35,402 nucleotides of DNA from Myxococcaceae bacterium (GTDB taxonomy: Bacteria > Myxococcota > Myxococcia > Myxococcales > Myxococcaceae). A model generated the notes under the pieces. That model was not told where the DNA came from, did no database searches, and saw only the letters and a program-made list of their open reading frames with translations. A program made the translations under genes and the position numbers. Shown here one piece after another: positions 28,869-30,978 of the stretch (positions are counted from its first letter, which is position 1; the number at the start of each line of letters is the position of its first letter). The DNA lies in NCBI GenBank assembly GCA_016926755.1, contig JAFGNZ010000054.1, forward strand, positions 1-35,402, in the 5' to 3' direction.

Positions 28869-29852
28869 CTACCAGCGCACCACCGCGCAACCCCAGGTCA
28901 TCCCGGACCCGATGGCCACCATGACGACGATGTCGCCGCGCTTCAGCCTCCCGGCGCGGTTGGCCTCATCCAGCGCGATAGGGACCGAGGCAGCCGACGT
29001 GTTGCCGTATTTGTCGAGGTTGATCCAGCACTTCTCGAGTGGGATCTCGATGCGCTGCATCACCGCCTCGAGGATGCGGAGGTTCGCCTGGTGCGCGATG
29101 AAGTGATCCACCTGGGACGTCGTGAGCCCGTGGACCTTCAGCGCCTCGTGCGTGATGCTCGTCAACTCCCGCACCGCGCACTTGAAGACCTCGCGCCCGT
29201 TCATGTTCAGCTTGTGGCGCTGGGTACGGATGTTCTCTTCGGTCAGCGGCTCCCGAGAGCCCCCCGCGGGGATGGTGAGGATCTCCGCCAGGGCTCCATC
29301 CGTCCGCAGGTGGGTGGAGAGCAGCCCCCGCCCCTCCTCCTGTGCGGGCGCCAGCACCATCGCCCCCGCCCCATCTCCGAACAGGACGCAGGTGTTGCGG
29401 TCGTTCCAGTTCAGCACCCCGGTGAACAGGTCCGCGCCGATGACGAGCGCCCGCTTCACCTGGCCCGTGCGGATGAACTGCTCTGCCACCGACAGGGCAT
29501 ACACCCCGCCGGCACACGCGGCGGCCACGTCGAAGGCAAAGGCCCTCCCCGCCCCCAGCTTCGCCTGCACGAACACCGCGCAAGAGGGCATGGGCATATC
29601 CGCGGTGATCGTCCCCACGACGATCAGCTCCAGATCCTCCGGGCGCACACCGGCCATGGCCAGCGCCTCACGGGCCGCGGCGACGGCCATGTCGCTGGTC
29701 GTCTCACCCGGCGCGGCCTTGCGCCTCTCCCGGATCCCCGTCCGCTCGACAATCCATTCGTCCGAGGTATCGACGAACTTCTCGAGATCCTTGTTGGTGA
29801 TGACTTGAGCTGGCGCGTAGGAGCCCGTTCCGATGATCTGCGCGAGGGGCAC
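28869..29852 (-). CDS. fabH: beta-ketoacyl-ACP synthase III
   Basis: The enzyme starts fatty acid synthesis by condensing acyl-CoA with malonyl-ACP, and in myxobacteria it would also set the mix of straight and branched primers. It has 327 residues, with catalytic C113 (AAACAGGVYAL), His in IAHQANLRI and Asn in YGNTSAASVPIA. The start is GTG at 29852, with GGGAG about seven bases upstream. The gene directly upstream is normally plsX; here that place holds 358 bp without an intact gene. Confidence 0.96.
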   Translation of the reverse strand: MPLAQIIGTGSYAPAQVITNKDLEKFVDTSDEWIVERTGIRERRKAAPGETTSDMAVAAAREALAMAGVRPEDLELIVVGTITADMPMPSCAVFVQAKLGAGRAFAFDVAAACAGGVYALSVAEQFIRTGQVKRALVIGADLFTGVLNWNDRNTCVLFGDGAGAMVLAPAQEEGRGLLSTHLRTDGALAEILTIPAGGSREPLTEENIRTQRHKLNMNGREVFKCAVRELTSITHEALKVHGLTTSQVDHFIAHQANLRILEAVMQRIEIPLEKCWINLDKYGNTSAASVPIALDEANRAGRLKRGDIVVMVAIGSGMTWGCAVVRW

Positions 29853-29985
29853 GTGGTTCTCCCTGAGTGTCGTCGGAACACAACGCTGCGGGCGGGCTCT
29901 CTAATCGGAAATAGCGGCGCCTGTCGCTCTTTTTCCTCCCAGGAAGACAGGCAACCAGGCACGCGGCGGGCAATGCGGCGCGTCA

Positions 29986-30165
29986 ACCCGGGCTGCCCGC
30001 CGGAAGCAGGACAGACGCCTCCCGTCCCGGGCGAGCACATGGCCCACCCGGAGCGCGACCCTGGCTTTCTTCGGAGGATGGAGGAGCTGTCGTCCAGCCC
30101 CACCACGGTGCGCGCCGGGTGCACCCGCACGCGCGACAACGCCCCCGCGAGCACGCTTCGTGCTC
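29986..30165 (-). pseudogene. plsX: probable decayed fragment of plsX (phosphate acyltransferase)
   Basis: Read on the minus strand in three successive frames, this stretch gives RVRVHPARTVVGLDDSSS then ILRRKPGS, next RVGHVLARDGR, then EASVLLPAGSPG. PlsX proteins carry the same order near residues 60-110: a VVxMDD segment, LRRKxxSS, RVAxELVRDGRAD, and VSAGNTGAL. Two frame changes in the same direction (near 30050 and 30015) would join them. The start codon region (MGGDHAP) and the C-terminal two thirds are missing. The position, between rpmF and fabH, is exactly where intact plsX normally lies. The similarity is judged by eye, so the call needs alignment, but place and motif order support each other. 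Confidence 0.55.
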
Positions 30166-30169
30166 CGGG
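30144..30169. repeat. inverted repeat downstream of rpmF
   Basis: GAGCACG (30149-30155) and CGTGCTC (30159-30165) pair perfectly around a 3-base loop; CCCG (30144-30147) and CGGG (30166-30169) extend the stem with one bulged base at 30148. It starts about 40 bp beyond the rpmF stop. Without a U tract it may end or stabilise the yceD-rpmF message. Confidence 0.5.
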
Positions 30170-30210
30170 AGCGCTCACGCGAACGGCACGCCACCGGCGG
30201 CGCGCCTCAC

Positions 30211-30393
30211 CTACTCCGTCGCGATGACCTCACGCCCGCTGTAGTTGCCACAGGCGGCGCAGGCGCGGTGCGGCAGCACCGGCTCCTTGCACTTGGAGCA
30301 CTTGATGACCTGCACGGCGCTCCGCAGGTTGCTGTTGGCCGCGCGGCGGCGGTCCCGGCGCATCTTCGACGTCCGCTTCTTGGGAACTCCCAC
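30211..30393 (-). CDS. rpmF: 50S ribosomal protein L32
   Basis: The 60-residue basic protein of the large ribosomal subunit has the typical start GVPKKRTSKMRRDRRRA and four zinc-binding cysteines, C32, C35, C45 and C48 (CSKC and CAAC). Zinc-type L32 is thus present. It lies 9 bp after the yceD stop, the classic yceD-rpmF pair. The gene normally following, plsX, is not intact. Confidence 0.97.
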   Translation of the reverse strand: MGVPKKRTSKMRRDRRRAANSNLRSAVQVIKCSKCKEPVLPHRACAACGNYSGREVIATE

Positions 30394-30402
30394 GACTCAC
30401 CT

Positions 30403-30978
30403 CTAGTTCAGCTTGATGTTCATCAGCGGCGCGAGCCGCGGGTCGATGACCTTCGTCTCGCAACCACACTTCTTCTCGTTGAGGTTCTGGCCACACTGCG
30501 CGCAGAGCCCCTTGCAGTCCTCACGACAGACCGCGTTCATTGGGAGGGCGAGCAATACCTGCTCACGCACGATCGGATCCAGATCGATCGTCTTCCCGTC
30601 GAAGAGTTCCTCGTCGGCGTCCTCCAGCTCGAAGGAACCGGCGGTCTCCCCCTGCTCGGCCCCAGACTCCTCGCCCCCCACGTCCTCACCCCGGGCGAGC
30701 GCCTCGGGCACGAGGTTGAGGGTGAAGGACACCGGCACGTCCATCGCCACATCCACCAGGCAGCGCTTGCACGGCGCGGCCACGTGGGCGGTGAACTCGC
30801 CCTGCAGGAGCACCCCTCCGCTCACCTTCCGAAGGGAGGCATGCAGCGTCGAGGGCCGGGTTGCCCGGAAGCCGGTATCCTGGCCGGCCCCTCCCAGCAC
30901 CTCCTGGAGCAGCGCGAGACCGATAGGCTCGTCGAGCTTCAGCCCCGTCTCGTGAATTTGTTCAATCTTTACGACCAT
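30403..30978 (-). CDS. yceD: YceD/DUF177 family protein
   Basis: The 191-residue protein belongs to the DUF177 family encoded before rpmF across bacteria and linked to 23S rRNA accumulation and ribosome assembly in E. coli and plants. The central KRCLVDV and the C-terminal Cys-rich motif CREDCKGLCAQCGQNLN are characteristic, and a further C-x-C (KKCGCE) suggests zinc binding. An acidic insert (EDVGGEESGAEQGE) lies in the middle. It is the first gene of the minus-strand run, with a strong promoter 30-60 bp upstream. Confidence 0.92.
   Translation of the reverse strand: MVVKIEQIHETGLKLDEPIGLALLQEVLGGAGQDTGFRATRPSTLHASLRKVSGGVLLQGEFTAHVAAPCKRCLVDVAMDVPVSFTLNLVPEALARGEDVGGEESGAEQGETAGSFELEDADEELFDGKTIDLDPIVREQVLLALPMNAVCREDCKGLCAQCGQNLNEKKCGCETKVIDPRLAPLMNIKLN

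Follow-up and report, generated by a model that had tools for sequence, protein, structure and literature searches.

The closest described relative of the feature reported here is the operon-type PlsX (TIGR00182/PF02504), encoded between rpmF and fabH. Pseudogene formation is a general route by which a redundant paralogue is lost: of two copies that have long coexisted, one decays and its neighbours are kept. The locus described below follows this scheme, except that the copy lost here had occupied the textbook place in the operon. In developmental data of M. stipitatus a putative PlsX protein is enriched, and the passage of that paper dealing with plsX is silent on copy number (PMC8561891). 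Among the matches listed from the open-access literature, we found no report of two PlsX types or of plsX loss in myxobacteria, and no paper on a division of labour in an old PlsX pair.

The window, i.e. the whole stretch of 35,402 nucleotides that was analysed, is contig C47 of an assembly of 9.59 Mb in 409 contigs from a soil-dwelling myxobacterium. On its minus strand, yceD and rpmF are followed by a gap of 358 bp, then by fabH, fabD, fabG, acpP and fabF (the last four names come from the sequence and an earlier list, not from a profile search). The features are as follows.

30403..30978, minus strand: yceD (PF02620, 107.6 bits)
30211..30393, minus strand: rpmF, L32 (PF01783, 71 bits)
29853..30210, minus strand: rpmF-fabH gap and former plsX site, 358 bp between the stop of rpmF and the start of fabH; G062 and others have plsX there
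29986..30195, minus strand: remnant of a decayed plsX, covering PlsX residues of about 20-104 (frameshift-aware alignment with traceback; DNA alignment to the plsX of G062)
29853..29938, minus strand: conserved fabH leader, not plsX, with a promoter-like GCGACA-N17-TTAGAG read by eye (alignment)
28869..29852, minus strand: fabH, intact (PF08541, 123 bits; PF08545, 110.4 bits)

The first-pass annotation had proposed from motifs read by eye that plsX had decayed in place between rpmF and fabH. The comparison of loci shows that the gap is the site of an open plsX in related genomes, and a profile was built from 11 intact operon-type PlsX proteins and aligned with the DNA in a manner permitting frame changes and large deletions. 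The gap gives a significant PlsX match with a score of 129.3, against 46.4±6.9 for 1000 dinucleotide shuffles, none of which reaches it (maximum 70.7); a separate set of 200 shuffles does not reach it either. When both strands of the window were cut into 780 tiles, the best four were minus-strand tiles overlapping the gap (129.3, 115.3, 103.1 and 76.8), and the best tile outside the gap scored 75.7. Neither the profile in reversed form nor one of FabH was significant for the window or for the two congeners G002 and G006. The last aligned stretches, of the type EEKERQAPLFP, are located in the conserved fabH leader and were hence not counted as plsX. They do raise the frameshift-aware protein scores, and the test at the DNA level omits the leader: the leader-free 202 nt score 405 against the plsX DNA of G062, a near relative from another genus where plsX is open in the operon place, versus 173±15 for shuffles (0/300). 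When the profile is built from the unlinked PlsX type described below, the match on the gap is also significant (89.4, 0/200 shuffles), as expected from a relative of the operon type, and stays below the operon-type score.

The four PlsX-like strings noticed at first sight are all present on the minus strand, in order and in three frames, and align with PlsX residues about 62-104. VVGLDD (30106-30089) and ILRRKPGS (30079-30056) share one frame, RVGHVLARDGR (30050-30018) is in a second and ASVLLPAGSPG (30018-29986) in a third. The relic reaches farther upstream than the first-pass annotation had placed it: GGVPFA*ALPEHEA (30195-30154, minus strand) corresponds to PlsX residues 20-33 and holds an in-frame stop, and VLAGALSRVR (30154-30125, minus strand) corresponds to residues 34-43. 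From 30195 to 29986, the traceback gives the blocks 20-33 (with the stop), 34-43, 57-68, 70-80, 81-92 and 93-104, and at the DNA level the three longest of the blocks that remain share 77-80% identity with the open plsX of G062. The remnant thus shares the place of operon-type PlsX and aligns with its residues 20-104, whereas, in contrast to the intact gene, it is devoid of a start, is interrupted by a stop and by shifts of frame, has about 13 codons deleted internally, and has lost residues 105-321, the C-terminal two thirds; it cannot encode the enzyme. Significant homology, disabling lesions and the same place as the intact gene of relatives together mark it as a pseudogene.

Two other explanations were weighed against these data. 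GC-rich intergenic DNA could by chance have been misread by eye as PlsX motifs, and Pfam scans of the mechanically called ORFs that cover the gap indeed return no match; such a result is however expected for a remnant whose frame is broken. The shuffles, the tiles outside the gap, the DNA homology to the plsX of G062 and the homologous remnants in G002 and G006 leave a chance reading with practically no probability. An assembly or sequencing error hiding an intact plsX could be suspected in a draft genome of 409 contigs, but about two thirds of the gene are absent, the rest carries several lesions, and none of the seven genomes of the genus (the window's own and G001 to G006), including assemblies of one and two contigs, has an intact plsX between rpmF and fabH. 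We regard such an error as highly improbable. The presence in the gap of a broken remnant of operon-type plsX is confirmed, and the comparison with related myxobacteria, which provides the open gene of G062 and the remnants of two congeners, bears out its decay in place.

The remnants of the congeners differ in their preservation. That of G002 scores 154.3 (0/200 shuffles) and begins at PlsX residue 1; its first 43 residues share a single frame that no stop interrupts (VRLVLDARGGDPAP...), and plain tblastn with operon PlsX finds it (34%, residues 1-106). The remnant of G006 also begins at residue 1 and scores 87.1 (0/200 shuffles). The stop and two one-base losses of the window remnant are private to it, being absent in G002 and G006, and the C-terminal part was recovered in none of the three remnants. 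A second remnant near PlsX residue 250 in G002 and G006 was considered and dropped, since 89/300 and 35/300 shuffles, respectively, scored as high. In the frameshift-aware protein test, G001, G003, G004 and G005 score 36.0-44.0, inside the range of the shuffles. Against the plsX DNA of G062, between 27 and 201 of 300 shuffles score as high as these four; against that of Citreicoccus, 3/300 do so for G005 and 53 to 137 for the others. With no relic signal in these four genomes, the loss of plsX is there deduced from its absence. The related genomes represent different stages of plsX decay.

The rpmF-fabH gap measures 297-439 bp in the seven genomes; its upstream part is variable, while the leader is conserved. 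In an alignment of the seven genomes with G062, Citreicoccus and Corallococcus, the 86 bp that immediately precede fabH are conserved in the seven genomes and G062, which also keep the pattern GAGGAAAAAG.GCGACA-N17-TTA.A. A scan with a strict sigma-70 consensus gave no site in the leader; read by eye, GCGACA-N17-TTAGAG is a plausible candidate for the fabH promoter. The remnant itself might have been re-used as a leader RNA, an attenuator or a short peptide: an inverted repeat GAGCAC...GTGCTC can be seen by eye in the window remnant, and remnants persist in three species. However, Rfam gives five matches, all far under their gathering scores, the upstream part is of variable length and can barely be aligned between subgroups, in contrast to the conserved fabH leader, and the species differ partly in their lesions. 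Re-use is accordingly rated as improbable. A blastn search against plasmids gave no match.

The first-pass annotation had predicted that the loss of plsX would call for a second copy elsewhere or for PlsB-type acyl transfer. The former is present and intact, together with PlsY. The own genome contains one PF02504 match (304 bits), an open frame of 347 amino acids without internal stop on contig C149, which exceeds the TIGR00182 equivalog cut-off (302.8 versus 243.4). This protein matches the solved PlsX structure 1vi1 over residues 11-344; a point against its role as a replacement is that it has DVMGSDHGP where 1vi1 has DAMGGDHAP. Of the PlsB-type alternative, only the presence of a related protein held: the protein on contig C139 scores 392.9 bits against the TIGR03703 cut-off of 618.5 and is for this reason designated PlsB-like. 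In the relatives search (30 genomes, own included), PlsY was detected in 22 genomes and a PlsB-like protein in 29, none of which reaches the curated cut-off.

Some genomes depart from this set. PlsX without a PlsY match was observed in G011, G019, G022 and G028. A PlsX match is absent from four of the 30 genomes of the relatives search (G020, G023, G024, G026), from three of the 96 family genomes (G098-G100) and from 30 of the 58 genomes of the phylum sample. The four genomes without PlsX in the relatives search also have no PlsY match, yet contain a PlsB-like protein.

A tree of 73 PlsX sequences separates 30 operon-linked from 43 unlinked rows (linked meaning that YceD, RpmF or FabH matches within the same fetched stretch) with a support of 100/100; the rows were chosen from the loci at hand, the tree is unrooted and some rows are long. 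Both types include sequences from several families of the phylum and are consequently old. By its position in this tree, the surviving PlsX is a member of a separate, old clade and not a recent duplicate. Across both clades 61 columns are nearly invariant. The unlinked PlsX of C149 is an intact PlsX above the TIGR00182 cut-off; in contrast to the operon type, the unlinked type forms its own clade, has an APP1_cat-like neighbour in most loci and shows a few fixed differences, among them an added K.DPF stretch. The neighbour in the own genome is an APP1_cat-like HAD gene directly after plsX (L001:2508-3542; 33.3 bits versus a cut-off of 27.1), and an APP1_cat-like match occurs within the fetched stretch, regardless of order or strand, in 37 of the 43 unlinked loci, including some from other families of the phylum.

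From these data, we are highly confident that the remnant is a pseudogene of the operon-type plsX, lost since the older unlinked PlsX could feed PlsY. An ancestor would have possessed both PlsX types; with the unlinked PlsX supplying acyl-phosphate to PlsY, the operon copy would have become redundant, would then have been broken, and would later have been worn as deletions and frameshifts accumulated. During this decay the leader of fabH, which adjoins the remnant downstream, would have been kept, so that the fab genes could stay expressed. The unlinked PlsX very probably does the work of the lost copy. We infer the order of the lesions and the promoter role of the leader, as well as the full replacement of the operon copy by the unlinked PlsX. 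The locus shows a redundant old paralogue midway through its loss, and events of this kind are ordinary. It suggests that, given an old second PlsX, the canonical rpmF-plsX-fabH operon can do without its own plsX, and it warns that an annotation based on the place in the operon would assign the working PlsX to the wrong locus.

A more far-reaching scenario is that Myxococcota have long had two functionally distinct PlsX, an operon copy tied to fatty-acid synthesis and an unlinked copy tied to the APP1-like phosphatase and to another lipid flow, the latter copy having assumed the entire supply of acyl-phosphate both in this genus and in several other lineages. We hold this scenario to be doubtful; if it were true, the takeover by the phosphatase-linked copy would alter the coupling of phospholipid synthesis to the fab operon. 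The two PlsX clades indicated for Myxococcota, one of which is found near an APP1-like phosphatase gene, make a division of labour testable in laboratory myxobacteria.

The number of losses within the close group depends on the position of G062. If G062 is sister to the group of the window species, G002 and G006, two separate losses would have occurred, to which we give a slightly less than even chance. The best tree of seven operon proteins joins G062 to these three (support 75/76) and the tree of unlinked PlsX gives it the same place (93/64), but a single clade of the seven genomes of the genus is not rejected (AU test, p = 0.243). Moreover, the window and G004 share a DNA match where residues of about 72-96 would lie (176 versus a maximum of 150 in 200 shuffles), which may be a common remnant; it is the only one of 12 between-subgroup DNA comparisons above all its shuffles, followed by G002-G004 with 5/200 shuffles as high. 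The short yceD-rpmF spacing of G062, the window species, G002 and G006 was tried as a derived mark and rejected, for it is also found in G012, G015, G016 and G064.

In the family as a whole, PlsX was found in 93 of the 96 genomes. The operon copy is kept, by position, in 62 of the 96, with plsX within 3 kb of yceD in 56 and at 4-58 kb in six more; another 31 have only an unlinked plsX and none near yceD. A plsX away from yceD was recorded in 87 of the 93, and in the remaining six a missed copy is possible since all are assemblies of at least 800 contigs. The six genomes where yceD and the nearest plsX are 4-58 kb apart are all the genomes of genus g8 (G013, G030-G034), and in both loci inspected there (L041, L085) rpmF and fabH are beside plsX. 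If the tree of unlinked PlsX follows the species and no copy was regained, at least three losses would have taken place in the family: one in this genus, another in the G012/G096 pair next to G064 and a third in a 12-genome clade. Among 26 gap loci, 21 were scored (18 of the 24 extra-genus family genomes with unlinked plsX only, plus G018, G026 and G099), L029 and L030 being too short, L149 and L154 having no FabH match and L157 holding plsX. None of the 21 gaps scored above its shuffles (lowest: L024, 5/200; L144 and L153, 6/200), and the losses outside the genus are for this reason probably older.

Other rearrangements of the operon were observed among the relatives. No FabH match is present in the operon stretches of 8.1-9.5 kb from G014, G082, G017 and G068 (L194, L196, L198, L199), where fabD, fabG, acpP and fabF do match; in G017 (L043) a FabH piece of 22 residues following plsX is perhaps a fabH remnant. 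In L012, L013, L041, L043, L062, L063, L085 and L161, rpmF is on the strand opposite to plsX (and to yceD, where present), a reversal that corresponds to a small inversion within the operon and is found in several genera.
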